Assembly (NCBI RefSeq): GCF_001427285.1
Contig: NZ_LMFV01000001.1
Coordinates: 145,001 to 209,000 of the forward strand
Direction: 5' to 3'
Source of the DNA: Mesorhizobium sp. Root552
GTDB taxonomy: Bacteria; Pseudomonadota; Alphaproteobacteria; Rhizobiales; Rhizobiaceae
Length of the DNA: 64,000 nucleotides
Shown here: one piece after another, positions 57,421-64,000 of the stretch
Numbering within the stretch: position 1 is the first letter of the stretch
Layout of the letters: each line of letters begins with the position of its first letter
Made by a program: the position numbers and the translations under genes
The notes under the pieces: model-generated
The model's database searches: none
Seen by the model: only the letters and a program-made list of their open reading frames with translations
What the model was told of the DNA's origin: nothing

Positions 57421-58821
57421 TTACTGCAACATCAGACGCTGCTCATCTCGCTTCTGTGTATAGCTGCCCTTGTCGTAGGCGGCCTGTGCTTCGAGCTGCT
57501 CCTTGGTGAAATCGGTATAAAGATACTTCTTGCCGTCCTTGTCGGTCATGATCTTAAGATTATCCATCCCGACCGCGACCTCCTTCTCACCGATGCCGAG
57601 GAAGCCGCCGACATCGACGATAACGGCGTCGACCTTGCTGTCGGCAGTCAGCGCCACATCGCCGATCTCACCAACCATGGCATCATCGGCCCCGTAGACG
57701 GTCGTGCCGACGAGATCCTCGGAACGGATTTCGCCCGTCATCGGCATTGCCGTCAGCGTCGACTTGTCGATGGCCGCGGTCTGGGTCTGGTCAGGCTCAG
57801 CCGCCGCATCGGGAGCTGGCTTTTCGGCCGCCATCTCTCCGGCGGGGGCTGTGGAGTTCGCTTCCGGCTCAGCCTGCGTGCTGGCGGCCGTGTCCGTGGT
57901 CGGCGTCACGGTTGCAGGCGTTTCCGCGCCCGCTGCCGCCACCGCCGGAGCCGGATCATAGGCGCGGCGATCAAAGTCAGGCAGTGCCTCTAGCGATTCC
58001 TTGTTCGCCTCGACCACCAGCCAGCGGTCGCCATTCTTCTCGGTCCAGCTCGTCTTGCCATAGTCGAAGGCCACGTTTTTCTGGCCGAGCCCCAGGAAGC
58101 CGCCCACGCCGATCACCAGCGACTCTGCCTTACCGGCCTTGGACAACACGATATCGTTGACGGAGCCGATGTTCTGGGCGTCATCGCCAGTGCCGTTATA
58201 GACATTCTCGCCAATGATCTGCGTCGCGATACTGCCGTCGGCCCGCTCTACCGGTGGAGCCGGCTCAGCCGGTGCCGTCTGCATTTCGGTCGCAGGCGCC
58301 ATTGCCGTGCTGTCGGCAGGCGCAGAAGTTCCGTCGGCGGGCGCGGTCGTCGTCGCCGGCACGTCAGCCGCGGCCTGCGGAGCAGGAGCCGGCTCAAAAG
58401 GTGCTGGATCGAATGCCGGCTGGGCCGTCAGTTCTTCCTTGGTCGATGCGGCGATCAACCAGCGGTCGCCATTCTTTTCGGCCCATTGCAGCTTGTCGAA
58501 ATCGAAAGCCACGTCCTTGGCGCCTATGCCAAGGAAGCCGCCGACGCCAATCACGACCGAAGTCGCATTGCCGTCCTTGTCGAACACGACGTCGCTCACG
58601 TTACCGATATTCTCGGCATCGTCGCCGGGGCCGTTGAACACTGACTCGCCGATGATGTTGGTAACGAGACTGCCGTCCGACTGCGCAACGGGCGCGGCCG
58701 GAACAGCGCTGTCGGTCATCGGCGCCGGCGCGGTTGGTGCAGGCGCAGTGGTATCCTGCGCCATGGCGCCGGAGGCAAGAAGCGTCGCAAGGGCCGTCGT
58801 AGCCAAGAGTGTGCGGATCAT
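57421..58821 (-). CDS. Exported triple PRC-barrel protein
   Basis: 466 residues with a signal peptide (MIRTLLATTALATLLASGAM). Three PRC-barrel repeats, each about 85 residues and each containing GVGGFLG[IL]G or DVGGFLGIG, start near residues 48, 195 and 355. They are joined by Ala/Pro/Thr-rich linkers of 50-70 residues. Each repeat pairs a NIG[SN]V element with a GDRWL or GKKYLY strand. PRC barrels are small adaptor folds; stress-induced exported versions are common in rhizobia, but function is unknown. A perfect EcfG-type promoter lies 78 bp upstream. Confidence 0.9.
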   Translation of the reverse strand: MIRTLLATTALATLLASGAMAQDTTAPAPTAPAPMTDSAVPAAPVAQSDGSLVTNIIGESVFNGPGDDAENIGNVSDVVFDKDGNATSVVIGVGGFLGIGAKDVAFDFDKLQWAEKNGDRWLIAASTKEELTAQPAFDPAPFEPAPAPQAAADVPATTTAPADGTSAPADSTAMAPATEMQTAPAEPAPPVERADGSIATQIIGENVYNGTGDDAQNIGSVNDIVLSKAGKAESLVIGVGGFLGLGQKNVAFDYGKTSWTEKNGDRWLVVEANKESLEALPDFDRRAYDPAPAVAAAGAETPATVTPTTDTAASTQAEPEANSTAPAGEMAAEKPAPDAAAEPDQTQTAAIDKSTLTAMPMTGEIRSEDLVGTTVYGADDAMVGEIGDVALTADSKVDAVIVDVGGFLGIGEKEVAVGMDNLKIMTDKDGKKYLYTDFTKEQLEAQAAYDKGSYTQKRDEQRLMLQ

Positions 58822-58898: not shown

Positions 58899-58923
58899 AA
58901 CGCCTCCATCACTTTGAAGTTCC
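58899..58923 (-). promoter_or_regulatory. EcfG general-stress promoter of the PRC-barrel gene
   Basis: Minus strand GGAAC, 16 bp, CGTT: an exact match to the alphaproteobacterial EcfG consensus. It is 78 bp upstream of the start codon and faces the gene. The divergent copy at 58971 lies 48 bp away. Confidence 0.85.
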
Positions 58924-58970
58924 GAAATTTTTCTGCAAAACGCCTTTGACGGGGATTGCCCCGACAACCG

Positions 58971-58995
58971 GGAACCATTTGCGATAATTGACGTT
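58971..58995 (+). promoter_or_regulatory. EcfG general-stress promoter of the lipid kinase gene
   Basis: Plus strand GGAAC, 16 bp, CGTT, 72 bp upstream of the kinase ATG. Exact consensus; back to back with the PRC promoter. Confidence 0.85.
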
Positions 58996-59066
58996 TTGCG
59001 TGGGAAGGCCGGCCGATCCCGAAATGGCCACGCAAGCTCGCCACTGACCATTCGAAGGGATTTCAC

Positions 59067-59969
59067 ATGCGCTTTGCAGCGGTGCTGAACAGCGAGGGCG
59101 GCACCTTGCGAACCACCGACCTCGATGCATTTTCCAAGCGCATGACAGGGGCGTTGGCGAAGGCCGGCCACAAGATCGATATCGACATCGTACCGGGAAA
59201 GGACGTGGCCGCCGCGCTGGACAAGGCCGTCGGCCGGCGAAACATCGACGTTGTTCTGGTTGGCGGCGGCGATGGCACCGTTTCGGCTGCCGCTGCACGG
59301 CTGATGGGCACCAAGAAGGCGCTGGCCATCTTGCCGGCAGGAACGATGAACCTGTTTGCCCGCGGCCTCGGGATTCCACAATCGCTGGATGCCGCGATCG
59401 CCGCCTTCGCCGATGGCCGCGTCACGTCCGTCGACATGGCCAGCGCCAATGGCGAGCCATTCGTGCATCAGTTCTCGGTCGGCATGCACGCCAGGATGAT
59501 CCACCTGCGCGACAAGATGCAGTTCGGCTCACGGCTGGGCAAGATGCGCGCTTCGGCGCGCGCCGCCTATGACACGCTCGCCAATCCACCCAGGATGGAT
59601 GTGGCGCTAACCATCGGCGAGGCCGAGGTCATCACCCGCGCCAGCGCCATCGGCGTCACCAACAATCTGTTTGGCGAAGGCCATCTGCCCTATGTCGACA
59701 ACCCTGCCGGCGGCGTTCTGGGCATCTATGTCACCGTTGCGCGGCAGAAAGGCGAACTGATGAAGTTCATGCTCAACGTGGCGCGTGGCAAATGGCGTGA
59801 CAACGAGCATGTCGAAATCCACCAGACCGACAAGGTGAAGCTGAAAATCCGCTCAAGACGGCGCAAACTCTATGCCGCCATGGACGGCGAACTGGTCGAT
59901 CTCGATCCCGAAACGTCGATCGAAATCCACCCCAAGGCGCTCAAGGTGCTCATTCCTGCAACGAAATAG
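59067..59969 (+). CDS. Diacylglycerol kinase catalytic domain protein (YegS-like lipid kinase)
   Basis: 300-residue cytosolic lipid kinase family protein. The ATP-binding motif GGGDGT is at residues 66-71 in VLVGGGDGTVSAAA, followed by LAILPAGTMNLFARGLG. The C-terminal half holds the lipid-binding fold and a final KLYAAMDGELVDLDP region. Members phosphorylate diacylglycerol, sphingosine-like lipids or phosphatidylglycerol. The EcfG promoter suggests that it remodels lipids in stress. It ends 5 bp from the convergent holin-like gene. Confidence 0.92.
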   Translation: MRFAAVLNSEGGTLRTTDLDAFSKRMTGALAKAGHKIDIDIVPGKDVAAALDKAVGRRNIDVVLVGGGDGTVSAAAARLMGTKKALAILPAGTMNLFARGLGIPQSLDAAIAAFADGRVTSVDMASANGEPFVHQFSVGMHARMIHLRDKMQFGSRLGKMRASARAAYDTLANPPRMDVALTIGEAEVITRASAIGVTNNLFGEGHLPYVDNPAGGVLGIYVTVARQKGELMKFMLNVARGKWRDNEHVEIHQTDKVKLKIRSRRRKLYAAMDGELVDLDPETSIEIHPKALKVLIPATK

Positions 59970-59974
59970 GCTGA

Positions 59975-60439
59975 TCAATTGCCGCCCTTGTCGGCATCGT
60001 CGCCGTCGCCGTGCTTGGTGTTTTCGCGGTAGATGGCATAGGCAACCAACGCGGCGGCCGGACCGAGCACCGCGCCAAGCCCGCCCTTGCTGCGCAACAG
60101 AACCGGCAAGGCGGCAAGCGCTGCGGTCACGCCCACCGCCGTCAGGTCGGCATTGCGTTTGCGCGCGCGGCGAACGACACGCGATTCGGCGCTCACGCGG
60201 AAGATGAGAAGGATCAGCCCGGACAACACCAGGAAGCCGATGCCGAAGCCAAGCGCAGCCTCCAGGAAACCGTAGCGCGCCGCCACCCAGATATAGCCTG
60301 CCCCGACGAGGAACCCGACCCCGCACAGGGCAGCGAGGCCAGCCAGCGCATAGGCAATTGCTGCGCCGCGCGCGCGGCGCAGCGCAGCAACTGTCTCACC
60401 CGATGCGAAGCCCGCAATCAGCGATGCAATGAAGCCCAT
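59975..60439 (-). CDS. Phage holin-like/DUF1469-type membrane protein
   Basis: 154 residues. Two central hydrophobic hairpins (about 27-75) follow a short helix FIASLIAGFASGETVAALRRARG, as in YqjE-like proteins, and a further hydrophobic segment precedes the acidic tail. In enterobacteria elaB/yqjD and yqjE genes are also neighbours. Despite the family name there is no lysis gene nearby. It follows the DUF883 gene by 12 bp and so shares its EcfG promoter. Confidence 0.82.
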   Translation of the reverse strand: MGFIASLIAGFASGETVAALRRARGAAIAYALAGLAALCGVGFLVGAGYIWVAARYGFLEAALGFGIGFLVLSGLILLIFRVSAESRVVRRARKRNADLTAVGVTAALAALPVLLRSKGGLGAVLGPAAALVAYAIYRENTKHGDGDDADKGGN

Positions 60440-60451
60440 GGCGCGCTGCCG

Positions 60452-60778
60452 CTAGCGACGTGACAGAAGCGCGAACAGGAAGCCGACGCCGGCGGCAATC
60501 GCCAGCGATGTCACCGGCTTCTCGCGCACATTGGCGATGACCTGCTCTTCAAGGTCGCGCGCGTTGGAACGCAAGCTGTCCATTGCCGCCTCGCCCTGTG
60601 CCCGCAACTGCTCGACGCCTTCGCTCGCTGCCCGCCGCGCCGTGCCAACGCCATGCTCGCCGGTCTTCGCCAAAAGCTTGGCAAGCTTGTCGATATCCGC
60701 CCGCAATTGCCTGATATCGGCTTCCAGGTCGGGTGTGGTCTTGGCGTCGTTGGCGGTTTTTCCGGTCGCGGTGGCCAT
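60452..60778 (-). CDS. DUF883 (ElaB/YqjD) family membrane-anchored protein
   Basis: 108 residues: a long charged helix/coiled coil (about 15-85, with LEADIRQLRADIDKLAKLL) and a C-terminal glycine-rich anchor AIAAGVGFLFALLSRR. E. coli YqjD and ElaB are stress-induced inner-membrane proteins that bind ribosomes in stationary phase. ATG 60778 is 32 bp from the CGTT of an exact EcfG promoter. First of a two-gene operon. Confidence 0.9.
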   Translation of the reverse strand: MATATGKTANDAKTTPDLEADIRQLRADIDKLAKLLAKTGEHGVGTARRAASEGVEQLRAQGEAAMDSLRSNARDLEEQVIANVREKPVTSLAIAAGVGFLFALLSRR

Positions 60779-60809
60779 TCTCAACTCCTTGAATTCGTGT
60801 CGTATCGGG

Positions 60810-60834
60810 AACGCGCAAAAAACCTCAAGGTTCC
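60810..60834 (-). promoter_or_regulatory. EcfG general-stress promoter of the DUF883-holin operon
   Basis: Minus strand GGAAC, 16 bp, CGTT, ending 32 bp before the DUF883 start codon. Exact consensus. Confidence 0.87.
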
Positions 60835-60894
60835 GGGTTAGCCCTTATTGGAAGGCTTTTCCTTGCCGGAGTCCACAGCAAGCAGGCGCAGCCA

Positions 60895-61653
60895 TCACAC
60901 AAGCGGCCGGCGGCCTTCGCCTAACCCATCCCACCCGGCGATGGATTGCAGGCCATCGGCATCGATCACCTCGCAGCCGCCGTCGCGCCAGTGGATCAAC
61001 TTGCGGTCGATGAGCTTGCGCAGCGTCTTGTTTGTGTGAACCAGTGACAGGCCGAGCGTGTCGGCGACATGCTGCTGCGTGATCGGGATTTCGACCGGCG
61101 CCTTGCCGTTCAGCCCGACCACCTTGGCCCGCGCATGAATGAAGGCGATGAGATAGGCGGCACGTTCAAGCGCGGTGCGACGCCCCACGCTCAGCAAATT
61201 CTCGTCGAGCATGCGTTCCTCGCGCGACGCCAGCCAGGTGATGTCGTAGGCGAGTCCTGGATGTTCGCGATAGAGACCGTGCAGGTTGTCGCGCTCGAAA
61301 ACGCAAAGCAGTAGTTCCGACAGCGCCTCCACCGAATGCTGCATCTCGCCCATCACGCTGCCTTGCAGGCCGATCAGGTCGCCGGGCATGACGTAGTTGA
61401 GGATCTGGCGGCGACCATCGTCGAGCAGTTTGTAGCGGAACCCCCATCCGGAAAGGACCGTATAGAGGTGGGCGCTGTGATTGCCTTCGACCAGCACCGT
61501 CGCGCCACGGTCGACAGCCAGTTCGCCTTTCTTGAAAGTGCTGATATAGGCGAGTTCCTGCGGCTCGAATTCACGGAAGGCGGGCAGCGGTCGCAACGGG
61601 CACTTCTCGCAAGGATAACGACGCGCCGAACGACTTCCGTGCTGTTCCGCCAT
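60895..61653 (-). CDS. Crp/Fnr family transcriptional regulator
   Basis: 252 residues. The cyclic-nucleotide-type sensor fold spans about 35-150 (VLVEGNHSAHLYTVLSGWGF, MPGDLIGLQGSVMG); the C-terminal helix-turn-helix is ITQQHVADTLGLSLVHTNKTL. The N terminus has PCEKCPLRPL with two Cys, but the full four-Cys set of oxygen-sensing FNR is not present, so an iron-sulfur cluster is doubtful. Ligand unknown. An exact EcfG promoter 33 bp upstream makes it a probable second-tier regulator of the stress response. Confidence 0.92.
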   Translation of the reverse strand: MAEQHGSRSARRYPCEKCPLRPLPAFREFEPQELAYISTFKKGELAVDRGATVLVEGNHSAHLYTVLSGWGFRYKLLDDGRRQILNYVMPGDLIGLQGSVMGEMQHSVEALSELLLCVFERDNLHGLYREHPGLAYDITWLASREERMLDENLLSVGRRTALERAAYLIAFIHARAKVVGLNGKAPVEIPITQQHVADTLGLSLVHTNKTLRKLIDRKLIHWRDGGCEVIDADGLQSIAGWDGLGEGRRPLV

Positions 61654-61685
61654 TTTGGACCCCTCTCCCCAAGCTGTTCAATACA

Positions 61686-61710
61686 AACGCATTTCCCTTG
61701 CCGAAGTTCC
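61686..61710 (-). promoter_or_regulatory. EcfG general-stress promoter of the Crp/Fnr gene
   Basis: Minus strand GGAAC, 16 bp, CGTT, 33 bp upstream of the Crp/Fnr start; a strong GGGGAGAGGGG ribosome site lies between. Confidence 0.87.
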
Positions 61711-61797
61711 GAGAGCCGTTTTCTGAAGCTATGTCTTTTTTAAATGACAGGGTAGGAAAATACGGCCATGACTGCGCCCCCACTCCAAAGGAGAGTC

Positions 61798-62202
61798 ATG
61801 GCGTTGTCAGCTTCGCTCGATGGACTGCGTATTCTCATCCTTGAGGACGAGTATCTCATTGCCATGGATGTCGAGCAGATTTGCCGCGACGCCGGTGCAG
61901 CCGATGTCGCTATCGTCGACAATCTTGCTGGCTTCGACACGCCGGCAGCGTTCAGCTTCGACGCTGCGATCCTCGACCTGATGTTGAATGGCGCTTCGAC
62001 GCTGCCCTTTGCCGCCCGCTTGCAACGCGAAGGCGTCCCCTTCGTCTTTGCCTCGGGCCACGGCATCAGCGACGAATTGAACCGCGATTTCCCCGGCGTC
62101 GCGCTGGTCGAAAAGCCCTATTCGGGCGGCGATCTCATTGCGGCCGTGGCGGCTGCGCTAAAGGTTCCGCCTCTTCAATCCGCCGGAGACGTCATCACCT
62201 GA
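61798..62202 (+). CDS. Single-domain response regulator, FAT-GUY-like
   Basis: 134 residues, one receiver domain and no output domain. Acidic pair in LEDEYLIAMD, phospho-acceptor Asp60 in AILDLML, Lys106 in VEKPYSGG. The beta-4 region reads PFVFASGHG, close to the FATGUY motif of alphaproteobacterial single-domain receivers (SdrG, MrrA, Sma0114), which relay phosphate in the general stress response. ATG 61798 follows AAAGGAG; ATG 61768 is open but lacks that site. Ends convergent with, and overlapping, ecfG by 28 bp. Confidence 0.88.
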   Translation: MALSASLDGLRILILEDEYLIAMDVEQICRDAGAADVAIVDNLAGFDTPAAFSFDAAILDLMLNGASTLPFAARLQREGVPFVFASGHGISDELNRDFPGVALVEKPYSGGDLIAAVAAALKVPPLQSAGDVIT

Positions 62203-62723
62203 GCGGAAATCGCATCGGGTCCGAAATCGTCCTCGCCCGAAATCTGCAGGATTTCCTGTAGCCTGCTGCGAGCGCGGCTGACCCGGCTCTTGATCGTGCC
62301 GACGGCGCAGTTGCAGATTTCCGCTGCCTCCTCATAGGAAAAGCCCGACGCACCGATCAGGATGATCGCTTCACGCTGATCCTCGGGAAGTTTTTCAAGC
62401 GCCCCGCGGAAATCCTCGAGGTCGAGTTGTCCGTGCTGGGCCGGATGGACTGCAAGCCTTGCCGTCATGATTCCGTCGCTGTCCTGCACCTCGCGTCCGC
62501 GCTTGCGCATCTGCGAATAGAACTCGTTGCGCAGGATGGTGAACAGCCATGCTTTCAAATTGGTGCCCGGCTGGAAGCTTTCGTGCTTGTCCCAGGCCTT
62601 GACCAGGGTTTCCTGCACGAGATCGTCGGCCTTGTCCGCATTCTGCGACAAGGACACGGCAAACGCGCGCAAGCTCGGGATGGACCCGAGCAGATCGCTC
62701 TTGAAGCCCGCTGATACGGCCAT
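62175..62723 (-). CDS. ecfG: General stress sigma factor EcfG
   Basis: ECF sigma factor of the EcfG (ECF15) group, 182 residues, which directs RNA polymerase to GGAAC-N16/17-CGTT promoters. Region 2: ADDLVQETLVKAWDKHESF and LKAWLFTILRNEF. Region 4: LPEDQREAIILIGASGFSYE, then EAAEICNCAVGTIKSRVSRA. It is held by the anti-sigma factor NepR until PhyR is phosphorylated. The gene begins 3 bp after the nepR stop, so the two are co-translated. Confidence 0.96.
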   Translation of the reverse strand: MAVSAGFKSDLLGSIPSLRAFAVSLSQNADKADDLVQETLVKAWDKHESFQPGTNLKAWLFTILRNEFYSQMRKRGREVQDSDGIMTARLAVHPAQHGQLDLEDFRGALEKLPEDQREAIILIGASGFSYEEAAEICNCAVGTIKSRVSRARSRLQEILQISGEDDFGPDAISAQVMTSPAD

Positions 62724-62726
62724 GCG

Positions 62727-62927
62727 TCAGTCCTTCTTCAGTGCGGATTCAGCCTGCTCCAGCTGGCTAAGCAAATCGCTGAACCGATCAGGCACCTCGT
62801 CGGAGACCAAGTCGTTGTAGTATTGCTTGAGTTTGCGGCCAATTTCAGAATTCGCGCCGAGTGGGTCGCCTTCACCGGCCTGACGCCTGCCTGCCGCGGC
62901 GGCGCTGCTTCTGTTTTGATCTTTCAT
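62727..62927 (-). CDS. nepR: Anti-sigma factor NepR
   Basis: 66 residues. The NepR signature runs from residue 29: IGRKLKQYYNDLVSDEVPDR, then FSDLLSQLEQAE; two helices that clamp EcfG. The N-terminal 28 residues are disordered, rich in Ala, Gly and Arg. ATG 62927 is the natural start. The upstream exact EcfG promoter makes nepR-ecfG self-activating, with the anti-sigma factor made in the same transcript. Confidence 0.94.
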   Translation of the reverse strand: MKDQNRSSAAAAGRRQAGEGDPLGANSEIGRKLKQYYNDLVSDEVPDRFSDLLSQLEQAESALKKD

Positions 62928-63010
62928 AATGCCTTCTGCCCCATTCCCTGCCGCCTTCCACTCGAAACAAGAGGCAAAGCGGTGCCCCTCTAAGCTCTGA
63001 TTCCGTTGCA

Positions 63011-63035
63011 AACGCCGTGGATCAGCATTGGTTCC
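63011..63035 (-). promoter_or_regulatory. EcfG promoter of nepR-ecfG (autoregulation)
   Basis: Minus strand GGAAC, 16 bp, CGTT, 84 bp upstream of nepR. Exact consensus. Divergent from the phyR copy, whose -35 box is 23 bp away. Confidence 0.87.
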
Positions 63036-63057
63036 AGTGCTCGCTAAAATTTTTCAC

Positions 63058-63082
63058 GGAACTTTTCATTCGTCGGCGAGTT
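63058..63082 (+). promoter_or_regulatory. EcfG-type promoter of phyR (near consensus)
   Basis: Plus strand GGAAC, 16 bp, AGTT (consensus CGTT), 72 bp upstream of the phyR GTG start. The single -10 mismatch may lower its strength relative to the nepR side. Confidence 0.75.
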
Positions 63083-63153: not shown

Positions 63154-63948
63154 GTGAGTCTGTCTGCTAAAATTGCACCGCATCTTCCCTACCTGCGCAG
63201 GTTTTCGCGCGCCGTCTCCGGCTCACAGGAAAGCGGCGATGCCCTGGTCGCGGCGATGCTGGAGGCCATTATTGCCGACATCGGCATTTTCCCGGCCGCC
63301 TCGAACGACCGCATCGCGCTCTACAAGATTTTCGCCAGGATGTTCACATCCATCGCCATTCGCATTCCGCAGGAGCAGTCCGTTACGGATTGGGAACAGC
63401 GCGCCGCCGCGAACCTCAACGCATTGGCGCCGCGACAACGCCAGGCCTTCCTTCTTGTGGCGGTCGAAGGCTTCGACGAGGACGAAGCAGCCGAGATCCT
63501 GGATGTCGACGAAGCCGAGTTTTCCAACCTGCTGTCACAGGCGAGCGGCGAGATTTCGCGGCAGGTGGCAACCGATATCCTGATCATCGAGGACGAACCG
63601 TTGATCGCCATGGACATCGAGGAGATGGTGGAGAGCCTTGGTCATCGCGTCGTCGGCACCGCCCGTACGCACACGGAGGCAGTGGCCATGTTCGCCAAGT
63701 CGCGGCCCAAGATGGTGCTGGCCGACATTCAACTCGCCGACGGGTCCTCGGGCATCGATGCTGTCAACGAGATACTGTCCTCGACATCCGTGCCGGTCAT
63801 CTTCATCACCGCCTTCCCGGAGCGCCTGTTGACCGGCGAGCGTCCCGAGCCGGCGTTCCTCGTCACCAAGCCGTTCAGCCCCGACATGGTCAAGGCATTG
63901 ATCAGCCAGGCGCTGTTCTTCGACCGTCAGGCCAAGGCAGCCGCCTGA
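63154..63948 (+). CDS. phyR: General stress response anti-anti-sigma regulator PhyR
   Basis: 264 residues. An N-terminal sigma-factor-like domain (1-130; LPYLRRFSRAVSGSQESGD and LAPRQRQAFLLVAVEGF) mimics EcfG and captures NepR. The C-terminal receiver (140-258) has acidic Glu146-Asp147-Glu148, phospho-acceptor Asp191 (VLADIQLADG), Thr219 and Lys239 (VTKPFSP). Phosphorylation opens the protein. GTG 63154 follows GAGGGAGA; upstream in-frame sequence is intergenic. The cognate HWE/HisKA2 kinase (PhyK-like) is not in the window; it may lie beyond the right edge. Confidence 0.97.
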   Translation: MSLSAKIAPHLPYLRRFSRAVSGSQESGDALVAAMLEAIIADIGIFPAASNDRIALYKIFARMFTSIAIRIPQEQSVTDWEQRAAANLNALAPRQRQAFLLVAVEGFDEDEAAEILDVDEAEFSNLLSQASGEISRQVATDILIIEDEPLIAMDIEEMVESLGHRVVGTARTHTEAVAMFAKSRPKMVLADIQLADGSSGIDAVNEILSSTSVPVIFITAFPERLLTGERPEPAFLVTKPFSPDMVKALISQALFFDRQAKAAA

Positions 63949-64000
63949 CCAGATTTTTCGCCGGCGGGGGAACCAATGCAGCCGGCTCTCGTTTTTCCTG

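Follow-up and report, generated by a model that had tools for sequence, protein, structure and literature searches.

Promoter sites and genes of the phyR locus

We analyzed a 64,000-nucleotide stretch of the Mesorhizobium sp. Root552 genome (contig NZ_LMFV01000001.1, positions 145,001 to 209,000; hereafter the window), which carries near its end a stress-response locus built around phyR, nepR and the sigma factor gene ecfG. The PhyR-NepR-EcfG partner switch and the EcfG promoter consensus are established knowledge. A pattern scan of the window locates exact GGAAC-N16-CGTT sites at 58899(-), 58971(+), 60810(-), 61686(-) and 63011(-), and GGAAC-N16-AGTT at 63058(+), confirming all six positions and orientations listed in a first-pass annotation. 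The interval from the end of the -10 box to the called start measures 77 bp (58899), 71 bp (58971), 31 bp (60810), 32 bp (61686) and 83 bp (63011), and coordinates give 71 bp for the phyR site. The cluster has one more exact site, absent from that annotation, at 63969(+) upstream of a DUF1328 gene. An eighth site lies 1.4 kb beyond the window at L001:15405 (genome C1:210405), where L001 is the 19.9-kb locus C1:195001-214900 and window position equals L001 position plus 50000. The island is larger than the interval 58899-63082 first assigned to it and extends past the window end. An alternative match at 60808(+), where the box is GGTT, overlaps the opposite-strand 60810 site, has no gene behind it and looks accidental.

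The window holds seven exact sites in total, one of which (11681) is intragenic and distant from the cluster, compared with a mean of 0.49 and a maximum of 3 in shuffled windows. The whole genome (4.62 Mb) contains 69 exact sites against 111 for a reversed-pattern control, such that a lone match to the motif carries little weight. The island nevertheless packs seven exact sites into 6.5 kb, where 0.088 would be expected from the other 62 genome sites; the Poisson probability is ~7e-12, or ~5e-9 once all positions are allowed for. At the phyR locus, site density is above background and the array has defined ends, in keeping with the first-pass view of linked targets packed beside the regulator.

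Inspection of the regulator core reveals that nepR (62727..62927, minus strand; Pfam PF18557) adjoins ecfG (62175..62723, minus strand), with phyR (63154..63948, plus strand; PF22029, PF22233 and PF00072, NCBIfam NF006623 over cut-off) divergent from both, as judged from Pfam matches and coordinates. The ecfG product matches the Pfam sigma-factor models Sigma70_r2, r4_2 and PhyR_sigma2, and NCBIfam NF009199 over cut-off. The GGAAC-N16/17-CGTT pattern of sigma-EcfG loci precedes nepR-ecfG in exact form (63011..63035, minus strand) and phyR in a relaxed form with AGTT at -10 (63058..63082, plus strand). Two HWE/HisKA_2 kinases (PF07536) are encoded near phyR, one just downstream of DUF1328 (L001:14351-15382) and one of CHASE type ~3 kb downstream of the phyR start (L001:16175-17842). 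EcfG is probably of the ECF15 type, an assignment made because nepR and phyR adjoin ecfG. Upstream of the first kinase gene (L001:14300-14351), GGAAC is present and no correctly spaced -10 box is seen by eye.

The remaining sites each stand ahead of a separate gene. On the minus strand, the exact site at 58899..58923 precedes a gene for a three-PRC-barrel-domain protein (57421..58821; PF05239 in three stretches, signal peptide by eye). The exact site at 58971..58995 on the plus strand precedes a YegS/DAGK-type lipid kinase gene (59067..59969; PF00781, PF19279), which as a query against plasmids found distant copies only, none above 60% identity. The minus-strand DUF883 gene (60452..60778; PF05957 over cut-off) follows an exact site at 60810..60834, and 12 bp after it starts a gene for a membrane protein termed holin-like in the first-pass annotation (59975..60439, minus strand; no Pfam or NCBIfam match) that has no promoter of its own. 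The 12-bp gap and the missing promoter indicate that the holin-like gene is probably co-transcribed with DUF883, which would require read-through. A Crp/Fnr-type regulator gene (60895..61653, minus strand; PF00027, PF13545) lies behind the exact site at 61686..61710. Its product, possibly an iron-sulfur sensor, has an N-terminal CxxC pair by eye, as in Fnr proteins; the NCBIfam model closest to it, FnrL, scores far below cut-off. The plus-strand site at 63969..63993, also exact, serves the 54-aa DUF1328 gene (L001:14039-14203, start 64039), which begins 39 bp beyond the window and 45 bp after the site, and the L001:15405 site precedes a gene for a 107-aa protein with no Pfam match. Between the Crp/Fnr and ecfG genes lies a receiver-only response regulator gene with no EcfG site (61798..62202, plus strand; Response_reg below the Pfam cut-off, nearest NCBIfam models PRK13435, also below cut-off), the 3' end of which overlaps that of ecfG.

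Conservation of the array in Mesorhizobium

To place the array in context, we compared phyR loci of relatives, taking the best 80 of 372: 75 from Mesorhizobium, one from Aquamicrobium and four named only to higher rank. The closest phyR among them belongs to Mesorhizobium sp. 61-13, with a 96% identical protein. Gene order is nearly constant across the Mesorhizobium loci. Together the 80 loci contain 661 exact sites compared with 17 for the reversed control; 645 are intergenic, and 623 have a called start within 250 bp, representing ten gene families and one singleton. All except one of the 661 sites fall between -7 and +3.5 kb of the phyR start, leaving a single site in 771 kb of flanking sequence, which does not bear out the possibility, raised in the first-pass annotation, that unrelated regions hold the motif at similar density. 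Inside the interval, with phyR and its promoters left out, density is 0.70 sites/kb, ~53 times the genus background, and the 74 loci spanning the full interval carry 5-10 sites each (median 9).

The exact 16-bp-spacer site recurs upstream of the same genes: nepR in 80/80 loci, phyR in 77/80 (with CGTT), DUF1328 in 78/79, the PRC-barrel gene in 73/74 and DUF883 in 73/77. The AGTT found here at the phyR -10 position is shared by one relative (L053). The lipid kinase has the exact site in 55/75 loci and a site in 75/75 when spacers of 15-17 bp are admitted, 20/75 having 17; the first-pass statement that the spacer is always 16 bp holds in this locus and fails in relatives. The HWE kinase has the exact site in 62/80 loci, or 63/80 with 15-17-bp spacers. 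Among rows chosen for exact boxes, the spacers of distinct copies are only 50-75% alike. Two genes inside the array lack the site and serve as internal negatives, namely the holin-like gene (exact site in 0/76 loci) and the receiver-only gene (exact site in 0/79 loci; a relaxed motif, allowing any base ahead of GTT and a 16-17-bp spacer, in 4/79). The first-pass proposal of the holin-like gene as a target therefore depends on read-through from DUF883. Conservation in 80 loci, together with these site-free internal genes, supports the assignment of correctly oriented EcfG-type promoters. A cluster this dense and this conserved makes the promoters of the first-pass annotation look real.

Because some loci end early (for example L051, L076 and L121), absence of a gene from a locus does not equate to its loss. 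The receiver-only gene stands tail to tail with ecfG in 79/79 relatives having both, and its product may modulate the PhyR relay. Of the 80 relatives, 74 have a gene for a 57-66-aa membrane protein, with an exact site ahead of it in 71 of these 74. This gene sits between the lipid kinase and holin-like genes in three relatives inspected; it was not found in the 19.9-kb locus of this genome, where 59969-59975 is the corresponding position.

Sites elsewhere in the genome and around phyR in other lineages

The surroundings of all 69 exact sites were examined, genes being called from codon usage with a model for which the window supplied the training sequence. In total, 31 are promoter-like (intergenic, called start within 200 bp), an estimate given the crude gene caller and one that excludes non-consensus sites such as the AGTT site of phyR. 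Seven of the 31 lie in the island and 24 elsewhere. Of 2920 random placements in the same DNA, 171 were promoter-like, a rate that would give 3.6 among the 62 sites outside the island. With 24 found, the regulon is both local and scattered, contrary to the first-pass description of it as self-contained.

Several scattered sites precede genes of stress-type families. A Pfam scan covering fourteen of the 24 proteins encoded behind them yielded Ku (twice over cut-off, once below), CsbD, DUF892, DUF3008, DUF378, DUF3309, DUF1236/SH3, BA14K, MgtC and topoisomerase IB; two of the fourteen gave no match. Among the ten unscanned proteins, some appear by eye unrelated to stress and may be chance matches (dUTPase-like at L183, substrate-binding-like at L193). 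Three promoter-like sites lie within 30 kb on contig C20 (L012, L188, L189), ahead of DUF3309, topoisomerase IB and DUF378 genes, possibly a second small target cluster. Two Ku-type genes on different contigs (C23:173208, L194; C45:367647, L204) have near-identical EcfG-type promoter sequence, as if the region had been duplicated; the frame called at L194 spans only 61 aa and matches Ku below cut-off.

To learn whether clustering extends beyond the genus, 40 phyR loci representing other genera in the order, spread over 21 families with a single locus belonging to the family of the window, were hand-picked from the 81 strong-phyR genomes of a 150-genome draw. Within ~10 kb these loci contain 143 exact 16-bp-spacer sites compared with 5 for the control. 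With phyR and its promoter region removed, 97 sites remain against 7.8 expected from the density of each genome, a 12-fold excess; 36/40 loci have at least one such site, 18/40 at least three, and four have none. Admitting spacers of 16-17 bp gives 199 sites, of which 174 are intergenic and 153 have a start within 250 bp. The downstream proteins of these 153 divide almost evenly, with 78 matching families of the Mesorhizobium island and 75 not. Labelled by eye, the latter comprise CsbD-like (13), AI-2E-permease-like (8) and Dps-like (6) clusters and 34 clusters of 1-4 members; two of the 75 are nepR-like by eye. These sequence comparisons suggest repeated recruitment, the regulator having acquired different stress-gene neighbours from one lineage to another.

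For loci outside the order, 115 genomes of the class were drawn, 18 of which, besides that of the window, have a clear phyR match; leaving out G215 gave 17 loci, some of them cut by contig ends. They hold 20 sites against 2.6 expected (7.6-fold; control 4), five of the 20 coming from one genome (G276). Three of the 17 are site-free and eight have a site no more than 400 bp upstream of phyR. The EcfG consensus may differ in these orders.

DUF1328 tends to occur together with phyR. It is present in 70/81 genomes with phyR compared with 2/69 without, a count that ignores kinship, and in 43 genomes it sits no more than 12 kb from a phyR-type gene; the phyR cut was set at ~E 1e-45, two below-cut-off DUF1328 matches were dropped, and the pair in G017 was counted as linked. 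DUF1328, a small protein without an assigned function, is tied to PhyR by this co-occurrence. Among 30 of 93 over-cut-off matches, the exact site precedes 7/12 phyR-linked copies and 1/17 unlinked ones, and the relaxed motif precedes 8/12 and 7/17, respectively; one unlinked row (L218), read at the wrong place at a contig end, is counted as having no site, and the thirtieth locus, whose neighbour is the second PhyR-like gene of G017, has none. The DUF883 Pfam model matched in only 6/150 genomes, too few for comparing unlinked copies.

Proposed circuit and relation to known systems

Taken together, the sites are very probably real sigma-EcfG promoters, and the locus the local, densely packed and conserved portion of a larger regulon scattered over the genome. 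Under stress, the HWE kinases would phosphorylate PhyR, a role assigned to them by inference, and phosphorylated PhyR would remove NepR from EcfG. RNA polymerase with EcfG would then act at its own nepR-ecfG promoter and that of phyR, and at an adjacent ring comprising the PRC-barrel, lipid kinase, DUF883 (with holin-like), Crp/Fnr, DUF1328 and 107-aa protein genes. A bounded target list for the Mesorhizobium stress response is thereby obtained from what was a sequence-only guess.

Expression data from M. loti MAFF303099 under heat shock bear indirectly on this circuit. Among the 50 most induced genes are mll3685 (PRC-barrel, 6.08, third strongest), mll3694 (transcriptional regulator, 4.98) and the hypothetical genes mlr3707 (4.25) and mll3692 (4.14), and mll3697, an rpoE2-like sigma gene, has an M-value of 2.4 (PMC3989490). 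Order and descriptions fit the island in M. loti CJ3sym (L086), on which basis the four genes would be the PRC-barrel, Crp/Fnr, 108-aa and DUF883 genes, respectively. With M. loti genes taken to total 7281, the nominal probability that four of the top 50 fall among 23 consecutive tags is 1.6e-5, for an interval chosen after the fact.

Several observations weigh against the reading of these sites as EcfG promoters. The exact motif is no commoner genome-wide than its reversed control, and counts over the 80 loci are not independent because these are close relatives. The exact 16-bp form precedes the Crp/Fnr gene in only 48/66 loci and the 107-108-aa gene in only 35/75 (54/66 and 69/75 with 15-17-bp spacers), and the HWE kinase gene here lacks the exact site carried by most relatives. 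The M. loti genes are mapped by order and description only, and the data describe heat shock, not an ecfG mutant. Transcription from each site in this strain is likewise something we infer.

If a short motif merely recurred in intergenic DNA, a genome-wide count below the reversed control would be unsurprising, as would the finding that the motif exceeds that control in just 2/41 genomes of one set and 20/40 of another. Around phyR, in contrast, the reversed control is far exceeded in both the 80 relatives and the 40 other loci, two site-free genes lie inside the island and the array ends sharply. On these controls, internal negatives and conservation counts, chance or base composition was rejected and is given virtually no weight. 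It is also quite improbable that the sites are real and served by another sigma factor, such as an EcfG paralogue (for which this genome was not searched) or one of ECF26 type. M. loti does have 25 putative sigma factors, four of them heat induced (PMC3989490), but the motif stands before nepR-ecfG and phyR themselves in nearly every relative, and stress-response-dependent promoters at both regulator units, with a kinase nearby, are standard in known systems (PMC8103513).

The promoter reading is compatible with an explanation of the clustering that we consider somewhat favored, in which ordinary stress genes are held together by inherited synteny and proximity confers no advantage. Bacteria generally keep related genes together, and gene order in Mesorhizobium hardly varies. 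Against synteny, about half of the downstream proteins in other genera (75/153) fall outside the island families, and the site excess in those genera (97 against 7.8) suggests recruitment, without proving an advantage. A contrary and rather unlikely proposal is that selection acts on proximity to the regulator as such. Different stress genes would then have been recruited beside phyR-nepR-ecfG across the alphaproteobacteria because scarce new sigma factor reaches promoters close to its own gene first, so that a local response precedes that of the dispersed regulon. The tendency of the alphaproteobacterial stress regulator to lie among its own targets makes the effect of regulator-target distance testable.

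The promoter class and the regulator are known, and it is the density of this locus that is unusual. As far as sequence can support it, and it does so well, the locus is ordinary in kind and unusual in degree. Our search, which left subscription papers mostly outside, found no description of the Mesorhizobium array or of class-wide clustering, weak evidence of novelty; the available parts of PMC11387232, PMC12772402 and PMC3616915 contain nothing on clustering. An Rfam scan of the 19.9-kb locus gave no match at gathering score, which leaves a noncoding RNA at one of the sites possible: R. etli has an EcfG-regulated noncoding RNA, ReC64, downstream of phyR-tcrY (PMC3892343), and Rfam may lack it.

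As in the sigma-EcfG (ECF15) regulons of R. etli EcfG1 and S. meliloti RpoE2, phyR here is divergent from nepR-ecfG with a promoter on each, an HWE kinase is nearby, the motif is GGAAC-N16-CGTT and targets are scattered. Enteric RpoS targets are not known to be clustered around rpoS. The RpoS regulon shares DUF1328 and CsbD-like members with the present one, as the sigma-S-controlled small proteins of Salmonella include DUF1328 (YtjA) and CsbD-like proteins (PMC5437024), but it uses a different sigma factor and promoter. The motif is identical to that published for R. etli EcfG1, where it precedes 19/56 units (PMC3892343). In Sphingomonas melonis, the EcfG-regulated genes #1442, #1446 and nepR2 #1448 lie beside ecfG #1447 (PMC6599016). 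R. etli and S. melonis thus share EcfG-regulated neighbours of the regulator, but these number one to a few genes, which contrasts with the string of separate promoters found here. Mesorhizobium also differs from the other genera sampled, its ~nine linked promoters in 10 kb forming a denser array around phyR.

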